Part shown: positions 3,073 to 61,505 of the stretch, one piece after another | Numbering within the stretch: the first letter of the stretch is position 1 | How the letters are laid out: every line of letters starts with the position of its first letter | Source of the DNA: Nisaea sp. | Lineage (GTDB): Bacteria; Pseudomonadota; Alphaproteobacteria; Thalassobaculales; Thalassobaculaceae | DNA: 64,000 nucleotides | Direction: 5' to 3' | NCBI RefSeq assembly: GCF_017640745.1 | Contig: NZ_JAEPQA010000006.1 | Span: forward strand, 62,001-126,000 | Made by a program: the position numbers and the translations under genes | Notes under the pieces: generated by a model | The model's database searches: none | Seen by the model: only the letters and a program-made list of their open reading frames with translations | Told to the model about the DNA's origin: nothing

Positions 3073-4968
3073 ATGAAGACATCCATCGCCACGGTCTCGA
3101 TCTCGGGAGATTTCGAGGAAAAACTGGCCGCCATCGCCGCCGCCGGCTTCGACGGGATCGAGATCTTCGAGAACGACTTCCTCGCCTTCGACGGCTCGCC
3201 GCGCGAGGCGGGACAGATGGTCCGGGACAGAGGCCTCGAGATCACCCTCTTCCAGCCGTTCCGCGATTTCGAAGGCATGCCGGAGCCGCAGCGCGCCCGC
3301 ACTTTCGACCGGGCCGAGCGCAAGTTCGACCTCATGGGGGAACTCGGCGCCGACCTGGTGCTGATCTGCTCGAACATCTCCCCGCTGTCGCTCGGCGGGA
3401 TCGACCGCGCGGCGGCGGATTTCGCCGAGCTCGGCGAGCGCGCCGCCAAGCGCGGCATCCGCATCGGCTACGAGGCGCTTGCCTGGGGCCGTCATGTCAG
3501 CGATCACCGCGATGCCTGGGAAATCGTGCGCCGGGCCGACCACCGGAATGTCGGTCTGATCCTCGATTCCTTCCATACGCTCGGGAAAGGCCTCAGTCCC
3601 GAATCCATCCGCTCGATCCCGGGCGACCGGATCTTCTTCGTGCAGCTTGCCGATGCGCCGAAGGTCGACATGGACCTGTTTCACTGGAGCCGGCACTACC
3701 GAAACATGCCCGGCGAGGGCGACCTCGACGTGACCGGCTTCATGCGTGCGGTCTGCGCGACCGGCTATGACGGCGTGGTCTCGCTGGAGATCTTCAACGA
3801 CCAATTCCGCGGCGGCTCGCCCCGCACCATCGCCGTCGACGGCCACCGCTCCCTGCTCTACCTGATGGACCAGGTGAAACGCATCGAGCCCGGCATCGCG
3901 ATCCAGGTTCCGGAGATGCCGGCGCGGGTGAAGGCATCGGGCATCGAATTCATCGAGTTCGCCGCCGACGAGAGCGAAGCGGAAGATCTCGGCGCGATGC
4001 TCCGGTGCCTTGGTTTCCGGCGCGCGGGGCGGCATATCGCGAAAGACGTGATGCTCTGGCGCCAGGGTGGGATCAATATCGTCATCAATACCGAGCGCGA
4101 GGGGTTCGCCCACTCCTCCTATCTCGTACATGGCACGACGGTCTGCGATATCGGTCTCAAGGTCGAGGATGCGGGCGCGACCGTGGAGCGCGCGAAAGCG
4201 CTCGGCGCCACGCCGTTCGAGCAGCCTGTCGGGCCGGGCGAGCTGAAAATCCCGGCAATCCGCGGGGTCGGCGGCGGCCTCATGCACTTCCTTGACGGCA
4301 AGAGTGATCTCGCCCGTGTCTGGGAGATCGAGTTCAAGCCGGAACAGGATGAAGCGGCACCCGGCGACGTCGGGCTGACCGCAGTCGACCATATCGCGCA
4401 GACGATGAACTACGAGGAGATGCTGACCTGGCTGCTCTTCTACACATCGATCTTCGAGACCCGGAAGACGCCGATGGTCGATGTGGTCGACCCGGCCGGT
4501 CTCGTCCGAAGCCAGGCCATCGAGAATGCGGACGGCTCGCTCCGCATCACCCTCAACGGCGCCGAGAACAGCCGGACGCTGGCCGGCCATTTCATTTCAG
4601 AGAGTTTCGGCTCTGCCGTCCAGCATATCGCCTTCCGGACGGAGGACATCTTCAGGACCGCGGAGAACCTGCGAGAAACCGGCTTCGTGCCGCTCTCGAT
4701 ATCACCGAACTACTATGATGACCTTGAGGCCCGCTTCGGGCTCGAACCGGACCTGCTCGACCGGCTGAAAGAGGCGAACATTCTCTACGACAGGGACGAG
4801 CGCGGGGAATTCTTCCAGCTCTACAGCCCCAATTACGGCGACGGCTTCTTCTTCGAGATCGTCGAACGGAGGAACGGCTACGGGGGATACGGCGCCGCAA
4901 ACGCGCAGTTCAGGATCGCGGCGCAAAAGCGGGCCTTGAGCGCCAGCGTGAGCGCCGCATCCGCATAA
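3073..4968 (+). CDS. quiC: 3-dehydroshikimate dehydratase, QuiC type (isomerase-fold domain plus HPPD-like domain)
   Basis: Converts 3-dehydroshikimate to protocatechuate. The 631-residue length and two-domain plan match Pseudomonas QuiC1 and Corynebacterium QsuB. The N-terminal sugar-phosphate-isomerase-like TIM barrel (about 1-275) keeps the four metal ligands expected for the family: Glu134 (GYEAL), Asp165 (LDSFH), Gln191 (FVQLADAP) and Glu239 (SLEIF). The C-terminal region (about 285-600) is a vicinal-oxygen-chelate domain like 4-hydroxyphenylpyruvate dioxygenase with a His-His-Glu triad at His440, His518 and Glu595. Its role in QuiC enzymes is less certain than that of the N-terminal half. 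A GGAGGA ribosome site lies about 12 bp before the ATG. With the adjacent dehydrogenase it forms a hydroaromatic-acid to protocatechuate route. Confidence 0.92.
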   Translation: MKTSIATVSISGDFEEKLAAIAAAGFDGIEIFENDFLAFDGSPREAGQMVRDRGLEITLFQPFRDFEGMPEPQRARTFDRAERKFDLMGELGADLVLICSNISPLSLGGIDRAAADFAELGERAAKRGIRIGYEALAWGRHVSDHRDAWEIVRRADHRNVGLILDSFHTLGKGLSPESIRSIPGDRIFFVQLADAPKVDMDLFHWSRHYRNMPGEGDLDVTGFMRAVCATGYDGVVSLEIFNDQFRGGSPRTIAVDGHRSLLYLMDQVKRIEPGIAIQVPEMPARVKASGIEFIEFAADESEAEDLGAMLRCLGFRRAGRHIAKDVMLWRQGGINIVINTEREGFAHSSYLVHGTTVCDIGLKVEDAGATVERAKALGATPFEQPVGPGELKIPAIRGVGGGLMHFLDGKSDLARVWEIEFKPEQDEAAPGDVGLTAVDHIAQTMNYEEMLTWLLFYTSIFETRKTPMVDVVDPAGLVRSQAIENADGSLRITLNGAENSRTLAGHFISESFGSAVQHIAFRTEDIFRTAENLRETGFVPLSISPNYYDDLEARFGLEPDLLDRLKEANILYDRDERGEFFQLYSPNYGDGFFFEIVERRNGYGGYGAANAQFRIAAQKRALSASVSAASA

Positions 4969-4997: not shown

Positions 4998-6947
4998 TCA
5001 GACGATTTTGATCCCGACGCCCTTTTCGTCGACCCGCTGGACCTTGCCTGACAGCGGCTTTCCGCCATGACTGAACTCGACGCGGTCACCGACCCTCGCC
5101 TGCAGTTCGGTCGAGAAGCCGGCTCCGGCCTCGGAAATGTCCAGAAGCGTGGCTTTCTGCGACTGACCGTTGACGCTCACCTGGATCTTTGAGCCGACCT
5201 CGCGGCGATCCCGGGAACGGCGATCGACTTCCTTGGTCGAACTGCGGACGATGCGCACGATGGTTTGGCCGAGTTGATCGACTCCGGCATGTAGCGCACT
5301 GGCGATCGAGCCGATGGAAACCGACACGGTCTCGTTCTCGGTTGCCCGCTGCGCGACTTCGGCGATCCGCGTGGCTACCTCGCGCGCAGCGGACGCCGTT
5401 TCGCCGACCGAATGGGCGATTTCGCCCGTCGTCTGGTCCTGCTGCTGCATCGCTTCGGTCACAGTACCGGCCATCTCGTTGATCTGATCGATCATCCCGG
5501 CGATGGACCGCACCTGCTCGACCGCATTGCCGGTCGCCTGCTGGATTGCCGCAATCTGCGCCGAGATCTCTTCTGTTGATTGCGCGGTCTGGTTCGCGAG
5601 CGATTTGACCTCGGAAGCGACGACGGCAAAGCCCTTGCCCGCGTCGCCGGCGCGCGCAGCCTCGATGGTCGCATTGAGGGCGAGCAGATTGGTCTGCTCG
5701 GCAATTTCGCTGATCATCTTGGACACGGATTCGACCCGCTCGACGGCCTCGGCAAGCGAGGCGATGGCCTGTTCCGCGCCTGAAGCGTTGCGAACCGCCT
5801 TGTCGGTGATGCTGCCGGTCTCTTCCATCTGCCGCACGATGTCCCGGATCGATGCCGACAATTCTTCGGTGCCGGCGGCAACGGTCTGGACACTGGCAAG
5901 AGCCTGTTCGGCCGCGGCGGCAACGCTCTGCGAGTTGCCGCCCACTTCAGACGCCGATTCGGCAACCGCGCCCGCCGCCTGGTTCATTTCCTCGGTTTGC
6001 TTGCTGACCTCGACCAGCGAAACGCGGATCTGGTCTTCCAGCGTGTCGGCCATGTCCGACAGGGCCTTGGCCTTGGCGGCTTCAGCTTCCTCCTCCAGCC
6101 TCTTCTGTTGAGCCCGGAGTTCGACAGCCTCGCGGCCGCTTTCCTGGAAGCGGAGCAGGGCCTTCGCGATCGAACCTATCTCGTCGCTGCGGCCCGCATC
6201 CTCGATCGGCCCGTCGAAATCGCCGTCGGCGACACGAAGCACAGCACCTGTTAGGCGGCTCATCGGCCTGAGCACCGAGGTCACGGCGAACCAAAGTATC
6301 GCAAGCACAATGGCCAGAGATACGGCGGCCACCCCGATATTGACCGTCAGGCTGATATCCTTTTCCGCTCGCGCCTGGGCGATGACGCGCTCCACCAGTT
6401 CAACCGACTTGTCCCGCTCGCGGCGAACCTCGTCGACAAGTGCTTCCACGGCGTCGTTGATCGCCTCGGCGCGCCCGTCGAAATCCGGCATCACCTTGTT
6501 GCCCTCGGCAGGCCCGCCCGAGATATACGCTTCGGCCAGTTTCGCGCCGACTTCGACATAGGCCTGGCTGGTCGCTGAGATCGCCTTTGTCTTTTCGACG
6601 ACGGCCATCATCCCGGCTTCCTGCGCCAAGGCCTGGAGCTTGGCCAGGTGCTCGCGCAGAAAGCCTGCGTATTCCAGCGCCTTCTCGTCGCCATCGTCGA
6701 GTCCGTCCAGCGCCCGGGTCGCGGAAACATCGGTGAACCACTGCTGGATCTGGACGACATCGTACCTGATCTCGCCTGTCAGCTCGGTCATTTCCTGAAT
6801 GGTTTCAGCGAGGTACGTGACCTGCCTTTCCATTCTTTGGAGCTGTTCATTCTCCTTTTCGGCGGTCAACAGCGAATAGCCAGAACTGACGGTCAGGGCG
6901 ACGGCGATGAAGCCGAGTCCGGCCAGAATCTTGGTGCGAATTTTCAC
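4998..6947 (-). CDS. Methyl-accepting chemotaxis protein with C-terminal PilZ domain
   Basis: A 649-residue transmembrane chemoreceptor. A first membrane helix (about 8-27) and a second (about 205-225) bound a periplasmic helical sensor region. A HAMP segment follows ([20 protein letters not shown]), then a long cytoplasmic signalling coiled coil with the conserved hairpin tip [21 protein letters not shown] for CheA/CheW contact. Residues about 575-649 form a PilZ domain with both c-di-GMP motifs: an Arg cluster (RRSRDRR) and DISEAG. This links chemotaxis to cyclic-di-GMP. The start is a GTG at 6947 with GGAGG six bases upstream. The gene is monocistronic, converges on quiC, and lies divergent from the iron-uptake operon. 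The ligand is unknown; proximity to quiC makes a hydroaromatic attractant possible but unproven. Confidence 0.92.
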
Positions 6948-44541: not shown

Positions 44542-45450
44542 ATGACGACGACCATTGCAAATCGCGGCCTTCCCGCCGCCGAGGACATTGTCGGCCCGAC
44601 CCCGGGCCAGCAGCTCCGTCGGCGTATCTTCGGGCATCGTGGCCTGATGATCGGCGGGGGCATCCTCCTCGTGATGTTCCTGATGGCGCTCACCGCGCCC
44701 TTGATCGCGCCGCACGATCCGTACATGCAGAGCCTGCTGTCCCGGGTGAAGCCGCCGGTCTGGGTTACCGGCAACTGGGACCACGTCCTCGGGACGGATC
44801 AGCTCGGCCGGGACTATCTCTCCCGCCTCATGTACGGCGCCCAGATCTCGCTGCTGATCGGCTTCGCCGCCGCCTTCATATCCGGCGTGATCGGCACGGC
44901 GATGGGCGTGGCCGCAGGCTATTTCGGCGGTCGGGTCGACATGGTCGTGACTTTCCTCATCACGGTCCGCCTCTCCATGCCGGTGGTGCTCGTCGCTCTT
45001 GCGGTCGTGGCCCTCATCGGCGGTTCGCTGACCGTCGTGATCAGCGTGCTCGGCCTGCTTCTCTGGGACCGCTACGCCGTCGTCATGCGTTCGGCCACCC
45101 TGCAGATCCGGCAGATGGACTATGTCGCCGCCGCCAAGGCTGTCGGCTGTTCCACACCGCGCATCCTGCTGACCGAGATCATGCCGAATATCGTCAACAA
45201 CCTGATTGTGGTCGCGACCCTGGAAATGGCCCACGCCATCCTGCTGGAAGCGGCTCTTTCCTTCCTCGGCATGGGCGTTCAGCCCCCGACCCCGTCCTGG
45301 GGCCTCATGGTCTCGGAGGGCAAGGACTACATCCTCTTCGAGTCCTGGATGATCATGATTCCCGGCGTCGCCCTCTTCCTGCTCGTGCTCGCGATCAATC
45401 TGGTCGGCGACGGGATCCGCGACGTCACCGCGCCGGAGGCCCGGAACTGA
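44542..45450 (+). CDS. Peptide-type ABC transporter permease (DppC-like)
   Basis: A 302-residue permease pairing with the upstream DppB-like subunit. It has the typical N-terminal cytosolic tail and first helix (FGHRGLMIGGGILLVMFLMALTAPLIAPHDPY), HVLGTDQLGRDYLSRLMYGAQISL, and the EAA loop (DYVAAAKAVGCSTPRILLTEIMPNIVNNLIV), then ILLEAALSFLGMGVQPPTPSWGLMVSEGKDYI. All are hallmarks of DppC/OppC. The ATG at 44542 is directly after the upstream gene. Confidence 0.93.
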   Translation: MTTTIANRGLPAAEDIVGPTPGQQLRRRIFGHRGLMIGGGILLVMFLMALTAPLIAPHDPYMQSLLSRVKPPVWVTGNWDHVLGTDQLGRDYLSRLMYGAQISLLIGFAAAFISGVIGTAMGVAAGYFGGRVDMVVTFLITVRLSMPVVLVALAVVALIGGSLTVVISVLGLLLWDRYAVVMRSATLQIRQMDYVAAAKAVGCSTPRILLTEIMPNIVNNLIVVATLEMAHAILLEAALSFLGMGVQPPTPSWGLMVSEGKDYILFESWMIMIPGVALFLLVLAINLVGDGIRDVTAPEARN

Positions 45451-57143: not shown

Positions 57144-58160
57144 TTGGGCGTGGTTGTGGATTTCGGAGACGGCGGAAAGCGCAAGGCTTCCATCGAGGGC
57201 CTCTCGAATTTGGTGAAGGCCGATCTCGACCGGGTCAACAAGACCATCATCGAGAACATGCAGAGCCCGGTGGCGCTGATCCCGCAGCTCGCGGGTCACC
57301 TGATCGCCGCCGGCGGCAAGCGCCTTCGCCCGATGCTGACCCTCGGCGCGGCCGCGCTCTGCGGCTACAAGGGCGAGCGGCATGTGAAGCTCGCGGCCTG
57401 CGTCGAGTTCATCCATACCGCCACCCTGCTGCATGACGACGTGGTCGACGAGAGCGAGCTCCGGCGCGGCCGGGAAAGCGCCAACGCGGTCTGGGGCAAC
57501 CAGGCGAGCGTTCTGGTCGGCGACTTCCTGTTCAGCCGCTCCTTCCAGCTGATGACCGCCGACGGGTCGATCGAGGTCATGCGTATCCTCTCCGAGGCCA
57601 GTGCCGTGATCGCCGAGGGCGAGGTGCAGCAGCTCATCACCACCAACGACACCGAGACCGACGAGAGCGCCTATCTCGAGGTGATCCGCGGCAAGACCGC
57701 GAAGCTCTTTGCTGCCGCCGCCGAAGTCGGCGCGGTGGTCGCCGAACGCCCGAAGGCGGAGCAGCAGGCGCTCGAGAGCTACGGCATGAATCTCGGCATC
57801 GCCTTCCAGCTCGTGGACGACGTGCTGGACTATTCGGCGCAGCAGGAGAAGCTCGGCAAGACCGTCGGCGACGATTTCCAGGAGGGCAAGATCACCCTGC
57901 CGGTGATCCTCGCCTTCCGCCGCGGCGACGACGAGGAGCGCGCCTTCTGGCGCCGCACCCTGCAGGATCTCGACCAGCAGGACGGCGACCTCGCCCATGC
58001 GCAGGCGCTGATGGCGAAGCACAACACGCTCGCCGACAGCCTCGACCGCGCCCGCCACTACGCCGCCATCGCGCGCGACGCGCTCGGGCTTTTCGAGGAC
58101 GGGGACGCCAAGCAGGCGCTGATCGACGTGGTCGATTTCTGCGTCGAACGGGCCTATTGA
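57144..58160 (+). CDS. ispB: Long-chain polyprenyl diphosphate synthase (octa-/decaprenyl type)
   Basis: Builds the ubiquinone side chain from isopentenyl diphosphate. The 338-residue protein has the first Asp-rich motif in LLHDDVVDESELRRGRESANAVWGNQASVLVGDF and the second in FQLVDDVLDYSAQQEKLGKTVGDDFQEGKITLPVI, and GGKRLRPMLTLGAAALCG near the N-terminus. The small residues before the first Asp motif fit a long product; C8 versus C10 cannot be fixed from sequence. The start is a TTG at 57144 with GGAG six bases upstream, or the GTG at 57150. Confidence 0.92.
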   Translation: MGVVVDFGDGGKRKASIEGLSNLVKADLDRVNKTIIENMQSPVALIPQLAGHLIAAGGKRLRPMLTLGAAALCGYKGERHVKLAACVEFIHTATLLHDDVVDESELRRGRESANAVWGNQASVLVGDFLFSRSFQLMTADGSIEVMRILSEASAVIAEGEVQQLITTNDTETDESAYLEVIRGKTAKLFAAAAEVGAVVAERPKAEQQALESYGMNLGIAFQLVDDVLDYSAQQEKLGKTVGDDFQEGKITLPVILAFRRGDDEERAFWRRTLQDLDQQDGDLAHAQALMAKHNTLADSLDRARHYAAIARDALGLFEDGDAKQALIDVVDFCVERAY

Positions 58161-58202
58161 GCGGCGATCCGCAAAAACTTGTAACGGAATGAAAATCACC
58201 GC

Positions 58203-58231
58203 TTGATGCGGTCGGGAGGCCACGCTATATA
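58203..58231 (+). promoter_or_regulatory. Promoter of tRNA-Pro
   Basis: TTGATG (58203-58208) and TATATA (58226-58231) with a 17-bp spacer form a good sigma-70 promoter, 17 bp before the mature tRNA 5' end. Confidence 0.65.
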
Positions 58232-58247
58232 GCGCCCTCTCGTCGGT

Positions 58248-58324
58248 CGGGGAGTAGCTCAGCCTGGTAGAGCACTGTCTTCGGGAGGCAGGGGCCGGAG
58301 GTTCGAATCCTCTCTCCCCGACCA
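58248..58324 (+). tRNA. tRNA-Pro, anticodon CGG
   Basis: A 77-base cloverleaf with encoded CCA. The acceptor arms are CGGGGAG and CTCCCCG, the D arm is GCTC-GAGC, and the anticodon stem CTGTC-GGCAG holds the loop TTCGGGA, giving anticodon CGG (reads CCG). The T loop is TTCGAAT. The 3' 46 bases are also the left attachment repeat of the downstream element, so integration left this tRNA intact. Confidence 0.97.
58279..58324 (+). repeat. attL: left copy of a 46-bp direct repeat in tRNA-Pro
   Basis: The segment from the anticodon loop (CTTCGGGAGG) to the CCA end is repeated without mismatch at 59999-60044. The bases just outside both ends differ between the copies, so the repeat length is exactly 46 bp. 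Site-specific integrases commonly use tRNA 3' halves and recreate them. Confidence 0.92.
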
Positions 58325-58359
58325 AAATTTCCTAAGGAAATCAACGAGTTACAAAAAGA

Positions 58360-58386
58360 AGACCGCCTTCGAGGCGGTCTTTTTTT
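58360..58386 (+). terminator. Rho-independent terminator after tRNA-Pro
   Basis: AGACCGCCT and AGGCGGTCT form a perfect 9-bp stem around TCG at 58360-58380, followed by a run of Ts to 58386. It lies 36 bp after the tRNA CCA end and inside the integrated element, so the element supplies the current terminator for the tRNA. Confidence 0.9.
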
Positions 58387-58575
58387 GCCATAATTTTATG
58401 GTGATTATGGTGAGTTTATGTCAGATCCAAAAATAATTGGATCGCCTATTTGAGGATTATTTCCTCTCAACCCAAACAAATCACTGTAAAAAGATAGCAA
58501 AACAATACTACAGGAAGCCCATTCTATTCCTCATCGCTGAAAAAGTGTGCCGACGGTTTATTTTTGTAAGCACAC

Positions 58576-59172
58576 TCATTCTTTGGATGGCAGATACAAC
58601 TCCGCAGTGCTTATAGATTCTAGCACCTGATCTTGCGGATCGATGTCTTCGTGAGGCTGCTCACATACTTCAGACGACACACCACGCAGGACACTGAGCC
58701 GGCGTTCAAGGGCATCAGCAATCCCGATTAAGCTGAAGATGCACGAAGCTACGTCGCCGATATCTTTAGCTTCGGCCTCTGCGCTTTGTCCGTAGATACG
58801 ATTCTGATCTTTCTTACCGCCAGTGTACCAGATGACATTGAAGTTGCCGGTCTCTGGATGTTTCCCCCACAAACCATGTGCGTAGTGATTGCGCCAGGTC
58901 TGCACCTCCTCCACATACTTCTCCAGTGTACTAATCGCGCTTCCCGCCTTCTCGTCGTTGATATGCCGGTCAAACAACAGCCGCAGCATGATCAACTTCG
59001 AGCGCATGTTTATCCTGGTAGTGATGATCCTTCCGGTCTTGTTGTCGGCGTCAAGGATGCGCCAGATCGATCGATCAATAGATGATTCGAGGTAAGCCCA
59101 AGCGGCCATGACCTTGCCTATCTGTTCATATTGTTCGGTTGAGAGCTCAGGCGTGATGACGTATGTGGGCAT
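58576..59172 (-). CDS. Unknown protein with HEPN-like RX4H motif
   Basis: A 198-residue, probably cytoplasmic, helical protein, the only clear gene in the tRNA-Pro element. In the middle, TWRNHYAHG (residues 92-100) presents Arg94 and His99 with four residues between, the RX4-6H pattern of HEPN ribonucleases found in toxin-antitoxin, abortive infection and CRISPR proteins. An aromatic-rich N-terminal helix (VMAAWAYLESSIDRSIWRIL) and a later helical segment (ASCIFSLIGIADALERRL) fit a HEPN four-helix bundle. I do not recognise the exact family and no antitoxin-like partner is adjacent. Codon usage is AT-richer than the chromosome, pointing to transfer. Confidence 0.7.
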   Translation of the reverse strand: MPTYVITPELSTEQYEQIGKVMAAWAYLESSIDRSIWRILDADNKTGRIITTRINMRSKLIMLRLLFDRHINDEKAGSAISTLEKYVEEVQTWRNHYAHGLWGKHPETGNFNVIWYTGGKKDQNRIYGQSAEAEAKDIGDVASCIFSLIGIADALERRLSVLRGVSSEVCEQPHEDIDPQDQVLESISTAELYLPSKE

Positions 59173-59998
59173 TGGGACGCTCCGAATTGAATACGATCCG
59201 ACGTGGAATGAAGTCGCAATCTCGTGTCAAAACGAAACGGGACGCCGAAGCGCCCCGCCGCCGTTCATCCAAGTAGGGCGTAGGCAGCAACTAGCCATTT
59301 AAGGCAGTTGGCCACGTCCAAGTGGACAGTCAGCTGTGCTGTGAATCTCATCACGCTCTCGCATAACGAGCCCACAGGCCTGTGAGCGTTTCGCTCTGCA
59401 TTTGTATACCGCCCCGTGCATGGCGGTTGCCTGCCCCTATGTACAACTTGGAGCTGGCATCGGACACAGTCCCCGATTGCTTCACCTTTTCCTTCCATCT
59501 CTTTGGTAAGGCGGGCCATTGGCTTGCGCCCATCGCCGAGGCTAAGGAACAGGGCCGGATCGGCTATGCACCCTTTAGCCGCTCCCGGTACGGAGCGACA
59601 CACGGCCTACCTGAGCCGTTCCCTCCATCAGGGATCGCCCACTGGGCTCCCCTTTGGCGAGTGCTGGCATTGTGACTGATTCAATCATTGAGAGTCGATA
59701 GGTAGAAGTTTAACCACGCCAACGAGATCACCCAGTGTCTCGCTGGAGCACTCGACAGAAGTTGAGGCACCCGATTGCGAACGACACTGCCTCGGTAGGT
59801 CAGGGGTTGAGCATGACCCCTGCCTTGATAATACAGGGGTCATACACCCTCTCAGCTAACCTGCTACGGTAGGAACTTGGCGGAATCCCTAGGCGTTCAC
59901 CCAGAGCAGGACGAAATAGACTCATCTGAGCTATCTTTTTCCCTACGCTTAAGTCTTTGGATATGTTGAGAAAATATCTTTTAGTATCGATTGGCTTA
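59173..59998. other. Element interior without a recognised gene
   Basis: This 826-bp stretch has several short open frames on both strands (up to about 110 codons), none with ribosome site, similarity or codon pattern that convinces me. It may contain a decayed integrase or non-coding parts of the element. Apart from the inverted repeat at 59813-59843 I see no structure. Confidence 0.5.
59813..59843. repeat. 10-bp perfect inverted repeat inside the element
   Basis: ATGACCCCTG (59813-59822) and CAGGGGTCAT (59834-59843) are perfect inverted arms around an 11-base AT-rich loop. It lies 155 bp from the right attachment repeat, a place where excision-factor or integrase arm sites often occur. It could also be a transcription terminator without a T tract. 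Confidence 0.6.
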
Positions 59999-60044
59999 CT
60001 TCGGGAGGCAGGGGCCGGAGGTTCGAATCCTCTCTCCCCGACCA
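59999..60044 (+). repeat. attR: right copy of the 46-bp tRNA-Pro repeat
   Basis: Exact copy of 58279-58324, covering the anticodon loop, T arm, acceptor 3' half and CCA of tRNA-Pro without the 5' half. It is not a functional tRNA; it is the original chromosomal tRNA 3' end displaced by the insertion. Confidence 0.93.
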
Positions 60045-60125
60045 TTTAACCTCACTGCCTCACCCCTTCATTTCCGTATCTGTCGCCCTCGGGGGTACCG
60101 GGATATTTCCCGGGCCCGGACCGCG

Positions 60126-61289
60126 TCAGAACTCGTCGCGCAGCGGACGGAAGAACTCCCGGATATCCACCGCCAGCGCCTCGGGCTGCTCCAGGGCGGC
60201 GAAGTGACCGCCCTTCTCCATCACGCTCCATTGCCGGATGTCGGTATAGACCCTTTCCGCGACGGATCGCGGCGGGCGGCGGATTTCCTTCGGGAAGGCG
60301 GCGTAGGCCGTCGGCACGTCGACCGTCCTGCCGTCCGGGATCGGCCATTCCCCGTGCAGCCGGTCGTAGTACGGCCAGAAGGACGAGCCGATCGCGCCGG
60401 TGAACCAGTAGAGGCTGATATTCGCGAGCATCCGGTCGCGGCCGACCGCCGTCTCCAGATCGCCCTCGTGATCGGTCCAGACATGGAACTTCTCGACGAT
60501 CCAGGCGGCGAGCCCGACCGGCGAGTCCGTCAGGCCGTAGGCCAGCGTCTGCGGCCGGGTCGCCTGGATCTGGGTATAGCCGGTCTCCTCCTTCAGCCAG
60601 ACCGCCATTTCCTCGGCATAGCGGCGCTCTTCCGGCGTCGCGTTTTCCGGCGGCACCGGGTCCGGCTGGTTGCCGAGAAGGTTGAGATGGATCCCGGAGA
60701 GCTTCTCCGGGTGGCGGATGCCGAGGGCGGAACAGGCATAGGCGCCCCAGTCGCCGCCCTGCGCGGCGAACTTCCGGTAGCCGAGCACATCGACCATGAG
60801 CGCGGCGAAGCAGTCCGCGATCCGGTTGATGCCAAAGCGTTCCTGCCCAGCCCGGAAAGACAGTCCGAAGCCCGGAAGCGACGGCGCGACCACCGTGAAG
60901 GCGTCCGCCGCGTCGCCGCCGAAGCGGGCCGGGTCGGTCAGCCGGGGGATCAGTTCCATGAACTCGAAGACCGATCCGGGCCAGCCATGCATCAGCAGAA
61001 GCGGCTTCGGATCCGGGCCGATGCCCGGGACATGCAGGTAATGCAGCCCGATCCCGTCCAGTTCGACCTTGAACTGCGGAAAACCGTTGAGGAGCCGTTC
61101 CTCGGCCCGCCAGTCGAACCCCGTGCGCCAGTATTCCGCGAGCGACTGCATGTAGGAGAGATCGGTTCCATAGGCCCAAGGCCCGTCCGGCGCCTGGTCG
61201 GGAAAACGCGTTCGTTCGAGCCGCGACCGCAGGTCTGCGATGGCCTCGTCGGAAACGTGCAGGGTCCAGGGAGTGGGTTCGGATGCCAT
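60126..61289 (-). CDS. Epoxide hydrolase (alpha/beta hydrolase with EHN N-terminal domain)
   Basis: A 387-residue hydrolase opening epoxides to diols. The N-terminal EHN cap is clear (WTLHVSDEAIADLRSRLERTRFPDQAPDGPWAYGTDLSYMQSLAEYWRTGFDWRAEERLLNGFPQF). The core has oxyanion motif HGWPGS (from residue 101), nucleophile Asp180 in QGGDWGAYACS, and the base His in EKGGHFAALEQPEAL. The likely physiological substrate is unknown. The ATG at 61289 is used; the frame extends upstream to 61364 with a hydrophobic stretch, which could be a signal peptide. Confidence 0.92.
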   Translation of the reverse strand: MASEPTPWTLHVSDEAIADLRSRLERTRFPDQAPDGPWAYGTDLSYMQSLAEYWRTGFDWRAEERLLNGFPQFKVELDGIGLHYLHVPGIGPDPKPLLLMHGWPGSVFEFMELIPRLTDPARFGGDAADAFTVVAPSLPGFGLSFRAGQERFGINRIADCFAALMVDVLGYRKFAAQGGDWGAYACSALGIRHPEKLSGIHLNLLGNQPDPVPPENATPEERRYAEEMAVWLKEETGYTQIQATRPQTLAYGLTDSPVGLAAWIVEKFHVWTDHEGDLETAVGRDRMLANISLYWFTGAIGSSFWPYYDRLHGEWPIPDGRTVDVPTAYAAFPKEIRRPPRSVAERVYTDIRQWSVMEKGGHFAALEQPEALAVDIREFFRPLRDEF

Positions 61290-61505
61290 GGGGGAGACCT
61301 CTCCGGCGGATGCGATGCACAGGCTCCCAAGAAGATGCGGGCCCATCAACAGAAACCTGTTCAAGGCCCGCCGCAGCGCCTCGATCGCGTGCGCAAGCGA
61401 AAGAATCCCGGACTTTCCACCGGCGCGGAAATTCAGTTCTCGCCTCCGCCGAAAACCGGCATGCTCGCTTCCGGACGGCTTTGGGGTGTGGGGCTTGCGC
61501 TAAAA

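Follow-up and report, generated by a model that had tools for sequence, protein, structure and literature searches.

The window analyzed here, a 64,000-nucleotide stretch of a Nisaea sp. genome, has 1 tRNA gene identified by ARAGORN, tRNA-Pro(CGG), at positions 58248-58324 of the plus strand, with an Rfam tRNA score of 62 bits. A single exact 46-bp repeat family was found in the window, with plus-strand copies at 58279-58324 and 59999-60044 spaced 1,720 bp apart, and the repeated sequence is the 3' end of this tRNA from the anticodon loop to the CCA end. The first copy (attL side) lies within the intact tRNA, the target gene, at the left junction, and the second (attR side) has no tRNA 5' half ahead of it. 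Exact matches to the tRNA in the carrier genome (G000; 83 contigs totaling 4.50 Mb, estimated completeness 97.2%) were confined to the 2 repeat sites, with the other 4 matches being 74-82% identical, and an exact 46-bp copy of the tRNA 3' half arising by chance is ruled out. Between the copies lies an element body of 1,674 bp (58325-59998) with 50.9% GC, whereas the remainder of the window has 63.9%. A preliminary description of this DNA had reported an exact 46-bp duplication of the tRNA 3' half at both ends of an AT-richer 1.7-kb insert; the repeat search and ARAGORN confirmed the duplication, and the GC contents bear out the insert.

The recognizable content of the body lies on the minus strand. 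A gene at 58576-59172 encodes a 198-aa HEPN-like protein with the motif RNHYAH (R-x4-H, residues 94 and 99) and reads towards the tRNA, 251 bp from the core, with a terminator-like hairpin beyond it at 58359-58381 (terminator scan against shuffles). Upstream on the same strand are a highly folded leader (59225-59785; z -3.69 against shuffles), partly alignable with L088:5105-5540, a 28-codon hydrophobic mini-ORF, MRFTAQLTVHLDVANCLKWLVAAYALLG, at 59265-59351, whose ATG adjoins or lies within a predicted hairpin, and a terminator-like hairpin (59236-59259, terminator scan) in the interval between the mini-ORF and the HEPN-like gene. The single cargo gene of the preliminary description corresponds to the 198-aa gene; the leader, mini-ORF, and terminator-like hairpin (about 59225-59785, minus strand) are additions to that description, as are the HEPN nature of the protein and the tie to IS1595 transposons. 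Terminator-like sites in the region numbered 3, against a shuffle mean of 1.3 (sd 1.2), and the 1 promoter-like site was no more than chance.

We compared the locus with those of 4 congeners (G001-G004). All 4 have the tRNA and a single core, with 2 differences in 77 positions in G002 and G003, both outside the core, and the element's protein was absent from all 4 at E ≤ 0.001. The congener DNA past the core starts TTTAA, like the window DNA past the second copy. Over the first 24 bases of the right outer flank (60045-60068), 0 of 2000 shuffles matched as well as G003 and G004, and 1 of 2000 as well as G001; the G002 bases start TTTAACC, but 335 of 2000 shuffles were as good, so this match is not beyond shuffles. 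The left inner flank gave a worse alignment score in all 4 congeners. Because the congener flank resembles the right outer flank in 3 of 4, the single-core loci are read as empty sites, and the flank comparison places the insert between the 2 copies, with the left copy completing the tRNA. The empty site with one 46-bp copy that the preliminary description anticipated in relatives was thus found, and the arrangement of the window, rather than being conserved in all relatives, is missing in all 4 congeners.

Several other differences were observed around these loci. The nearest congener, G004, is 96.7% identical over 1,324 bp upstream; in it, about 145 bp separate the tRNA from the point where shared sequence resumes, and the epoxide hydrolase gene to the right of the insert (60126-61364) is missing from this place in G004, a separate difference. 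About 2.5 kb lie between the shared upstream gene and tRNA-Pro in G001 (L025), the 2 being adjacent in the window. A lone tRNA-Pro 3' half (96% identity) on a contig without a tRNA call in G042 (L029:477-521) may mark one end of a further tRNA-Pro element.

We searched for a recombinase that could account for the insertion. None was identified among the 6 ORFs of the body with Pfam up to E 1, nor did the other reading frames of the body show a Pfam or PHROGs match above chance level. A stop-tolerant search of the window's contig (C66) gave no Phage_integrase match at E ≤ 0.001, and thus revealed neither an intact tyrosine recombinase nor a remnant of one. A weak integrase HMM built from 3 integrases of the carrier genome likewise found none among window ORFs of at least 120 aa and none in the contig flanks (L040, L041). 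The statement in the preliminary description that no recombinase gene is visible therefore stands for 58325-59998. A search for a helper integrase in the same genome, which that description also proposed, showed that the carrier genome has 5 Phage_integrase matches, none on the window's contig, of which 2 (C3 and C44) read as Xer-type from their sequence, 1 lies at a tRNA-Val island (C5), and 2 are neighboring genes on C77. The C77 pair (L039:7721-12435) consists of 2 long adjacent genes of tyrosine-recombinase type, with 1081 and 490 aa.

Across IMG/VR, 31 records have the exact 46-bp core, in 32 stretches altogether. Of the 29 records that entered the family search, 21 encode Phage_integrase. 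The weak HMM detected an integrase in 12 of the stretches; all but one of these integrases (11 of 12) read towards the core and end 56-206 bp past the core 3' end, the exception being L050, which has it on the other side. The window HEPN-like gene occupies the place and direction of these phage integrases relative to the core. In IMG/VR record 2906730848_000001, a 42-kb prophage has a tRNA with the core at 2398-2443, a second core without the tRNA 5' half at 44621-44666, and, beside the first core, an integrase located about 60 bp beyond the tRNA gene; with 2 exact cores and an integrase, this prophage shows what makes such a footprint. Comparison by eye of the inner flanks of the element with the phage att sites found no common motif. 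The exact duplication, the intact left tRNA, the empty sites, and a prophage with the same 2 cores together uphold the earlier reading of the locus as the footprint of a tRNA-targeting integrase.

The HEPN-like protein had no match in Pfam, PHROGs, PADLOC, or NCBIfam, and a sequence search identified relatives in 10 of 385 genomes of the class, the carrier included. In an alignment of 13 sequences, 10 from the sequence search and the G028, G114, and tRNA-Val proteins added by their place after the motif had been seen, residues G19, R94, and H99 are invariant and R-x4-H is kept in 13 of 13. The signature motif of HEPN proteins is R-x4-6-H. The R and H also stand in the same columns at all 20 additional loci that did not contribute to the profile, 2 of which (G173 and G260, 99.97% identical) amount to one sequence. 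At E ≤ 1e-5, the family profile matched 28 of 353 class genomes, a set that includes several genomes that supplied profile rows. When the 13 rows were compared with Pfam, a single row had a HepT-like match (E 0.025) and others matched unrelated names (best E 0.0023), and a profile search of solved structures up to E 1 returned no HEPN entry.

The AlphaFold model is helical, with a pLDDT of 67 and block means of 71-86 over residues 11-110. Foldseek found nothing significant, the best match (E 0.14) not being HEPN. In VIA, the HEPN toxin 8xdj ranked first (Z 8.2, rmsd 5.0, 104 aligned residues), with unrelated chains at Z 8.1 and 7.9, and further HEPN chains were 8yuf (rank 4, Z 7.8) and the sacsin HEPN 3o10 (rank 8, Z 7.5); the toxin-antitoxin entry 7bxo ranked 12 (Z 7.1). 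Given a best Foldseek E of 0.14 and unrelated VIA chains up to Z 8.1, the fold match to HEPN is weak, and the window protein is likely HEPN-like, named mainly for its motif. Protein scans of genome contigs and of viral contigs (IMG/VR) confirmed no relative, a phage protein search found none, and a plasmid protein search gave one weak match, in Azospirillum sp. B510 (26.7% identity over 68%, E 5e-4). On contig C5 of the carrier genome (about 52093-67730; L096:7094 onward), tRNA-Val(GAC) is followed by an integrase gene (327 aa) and by the second HEPN-like gene of this genome (200 aa, motif RNSIFH). Because another tRNA-Val-like copy, 98% identical over about 100 bp, is present 15.5 kb further along, this is probably a second tRNA island with a HEPN gene.

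We analyzed the region upstream of the HEPN-like gene for conservation of sequence and folding. The leader folds beyond shuffles on the minus strand in a shorter stretch as well (z -3.45), the opposite strand of which also folds fairly well (z -2.33). An alignable leader in the proteobacterial MAG G338 (JADFJG010000025.1) gave z -5.62, with z -3.72 on the opposite strand. The window and G338 share 2 hairpins with 11 common pairs, 2 of them changed on both sides, and these 2 sequences are insufficient as proof of a conserved RNA. The coding signal of the mini-ORF is weak, with 14 of 26 codons keeping their residue against 10.7 by chance and 239 of 5000 simulations as good, which modestly suggests that it is coding. 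The start codon lies in or beside a hairpin in all 5 cases folded (the window, G338, G028, one G114 copy, and G709).

DNA matches to 59173-59998 were found in 7 of 385 class genomes, including G000, G028, and G338, with those in G064, G172, G297, and G406 being short and confined to the hairpin region. Among the upstream regions of 11 HEPN loci, G338 and G028 alone resemble that of the window beyond short scraps. Rfam over 58000-60300 gave only the tRNA at gathering score, and nothing reached it in L089, L104, and L115. The body DNA had no match in plasmids or phages, and neither the leader DNA nor the mini-peptide matched plasmids. The leader motif was absent from viral contigs and matched 3 stretches of genome contigs, one being the G338 locus itself (L099) and the other two (L098, L100) judged chance matches. 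Searching the class with the mini-ORF at E ≤ 0.1 gave matches in 14 of 385 genomes. Six of these were inspected: G000, G028, G338, and G114 were accepted, and the candidates L105 and L112 were found not alike. In the phylum, 4 of 339 matched at E ≤ 0.01, namely G000, G709 (alike), and G706 and G467 (not alike). In G709 (L126:1489 onward), a mini-ORF starting MPQVFSIKVTVKADVAAIL is accompanied by a hairpin and a terminator-like hairpin with no HEPN gene seen behind, so the leader unit may exist alone.

The order of mini-ORF, terminator-like hairpin, and HEPN-like gene was found at 5 loci in 4 genomes: the window, G338, G028, and G114 (2 loci). Of the 4 loci outside the window, 3 lie behind IS1595 transposases. 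An IS1595 transposase was identified upstream on the same strand at 11 of the 33 distinct HEPN-family loci examined, most with 1.5 kb of flank, a raw count uncorrected for the IS1595 density of random stretches. The count becomes 10 of 32 if G173 and G260, 99.97% identical, are counted once, and 8 of 30 without G028 and the 2 G114 loci, which were first reached through the leader. In G028 (L089), perfect 24-bp inverted repeats at 3528-3551 and 5807-5830 bound the module together with an IS1595 transposase (NCBIfam NF033547). In G114 (L115:1924-6209), 2 IS1595 transposases stand back to back and point in opposite directions; behind each come a mini-ORF, a terminator-like hairpin, and a HEPN-like gene, and 1 of the 2 head-to-head units has an inverted repeat of 28 bp (89%). 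The left end of this inverted-repeat unit has 21 bp in common with the right end of the G338 unit, and neither a second copy of the shared end nor a transposase was found at the G338 locus. As read from the frames, the G114 units probably lie near a recA-like frame, and the G338 copy appears to adjoin recA.

A mini-ORF with a strong fold (z -3.95 to -5.70) was identified in 3 of the 8 transposase-to-HEPN gaps examined. The other 5 have no accepted mini-ORF and do not fold strongly (z -0.17 to -2.03), which makes the leader a feature of only a subset of these loci. Hydrophobic ORFs present in the G063 and G173 gaps were not accepted as alike. The window element has no transposase and no match beyond chance to the terminal repeats of G028 or G114, and the only IS1595 transposase of the carrier genome is on contig C5.

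On the basis of the exact att duplication, the intact tRNA, the empty sites, the failure to find a tyrosine integrase, and the phages that have the identical core beside an integrase, we consider it probable that the element is non-autonomous and CIME-like, inserted by a tyrosine integrase that it does not encode and carrying a selfish or defensive module with a ribonuclease-like protein of HEPN type, likely RNA-cutting. It would have entered the 3' end of tRNA-Pro(CGG) as a circle through site-specific recombination, the integrase being supplied in trans or encoded at first and later deleted. Excision of the element, or integration next to it, by an incoming phage or ICE of the same specificity could still occur. 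Either the leader or the mini-ORF with its peptide may restrain or condition the HEPN protein through read-through control, RNA binding, or both, and the outcome would be that the element is kept or the host protected from phages. The element has a single carrier genome, so no mobility was seen.

A decayed island and a satellite that never had its own integrase would both produce such an element. Under the former, to which we give about an even chance, a larger integrase-coding element would have undergone an internal deletion that spared the att sites and the HEPN module, together with about 460 bp of unassigned DNA (59786-59998 and 58325-58575). Decay is a route to CIMEs in the account given in PMC5704250, and the phage integrase in 11 of 12 stretches occupies the very place of the HEPN-like gene, reading towards the core; against this, the stop-tolerant search of the contig revealed no tyrosine integrase remnant, and none of the other body frames resembles a Pfam or PHROGs family more than chance would give. 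A satellite consisting of att sites and cargo, moved in trans by the integrases of phages or ICEs that use tRNA-Pro(CGG), seems unlikely. It would fit the compact form, the complete module, the exact ends, the existence of helper-type phages with an identical core, and the occurrence of the module in other kinds of element, but no second copy was found in plasmid or phage DNA and no protein relative in IMG/VR.

The cargo could also have come in an IS1595-type transposon that entered an older tRNA-Pro island and later lost its transposase and ends. The same-strand transposase upstream of 11 of 33 family loci (10 of 32 deduplicated) and the inverted repeats, perfect over 24 bp around the whole set in G028 and 89% over 28 bp in G114, speak for this route, but the count is a raw one, uncorrected for IS1595 density, and the window element retains neither a transposase nor a terminal-repeat match beyond chance, which leaves such an arrival rather doubtful. 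Segmental duplication, gene conversion, or an assembly error could have made the second tRNA half with no mobile element at all; this is highly improbable in view of a body composition that differs from its surroundings, a right flank like that of the empty sites, and a core that is the one used by phages, such as the 42-kb prophage of 2906730848_000001.

For the cargo of the CIME-like element, the sequence comparisons would fit an RNA-conditioned HEPN toxin or defense module able to pass from one type of mobile element to another. Our literature search found no description of a leader, mini-ORF, and HEPN module, which is no proof of its absence from print. We tentatively propose, as a possibility rather than an expectation, that the 3 parts form an undescribed RNA-conditioned HEPN system portable between mobile elements, a passenger of IS1595 transposons in certain members of the class and the sole recognizable cargo of an integrase-less tRNA element here. 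If true, the locus would show how small a tRNA-borne element with a full module can be and would indicate an unnamed HEPN-like gene family, part of it with a folded leader and mini-ORF ahead.

Among known systems, CIMEs are described as ICEs or IMEs that have decayed and that often form tandem arrays with a newly arriving element (PMC5704250). The window element is like those described there in its att sites at both ends, its tRNA gene target, and the lack of any integration or transfer gene found, with no Phage_integrase match on the contig and 6 body ORFs without a Pfam match within the cut-off; it differs in that neither a tandem partner nor any sign of conjugation genes was seen. PICMIs, as presented in PMC10803314, are likewise small and site-specific and may carry anti-phage cargo, but they encode an integrase, AlpA, and a primase, none of which was found in the window element. 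Assignment to the phage satellites (PICI, PICMI, or P4-like) was rejected, as an own integrase with a regulator or replication gene was not found. Compared with the IS1595 transposons, whose passengers include relatives of the HEPN gene, in 3 cases with the mini-ORF and terminator-like hairpin, the window element has neither the transposase nor those terminal inverted repeats. Type I toxin-antitoxin systems combine a tiny, toxic hydrophobic peptide, a long folded leader, a start codon in or beside a hairpin, and an antisense RNA. The window resembles them in its predicted hydrophobic mini-ORF, long folded leader, and start codon in or beside a hairpin, but its mini-ORF is tied to a HEPN gene. 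Membership in AbiF was rejected, with no Abi_2 match up to E 1 and no RF03085 among 17 Rfam matches up to E 5. AbiF with RCd22 is nevertheless the nearest studied parallel in the account of PMC12373285, having a terminator-ended RNA followed by the gene for a HEPN-related toxin on one strand. RCd22 ends in a terminator, precedes the AbiF gene, and binds and neutralizes the protein (PMC12373285). It measures about 90-130 nt, compared with a folded region of about 450-560 nt with a mini-ORF in the window. The same source ties AbiF structurally to the ancestral Cas13 (PMC12373285), and further pairs of an RNA and a HEPN protein on mobile DNA are therefore of direct interest.
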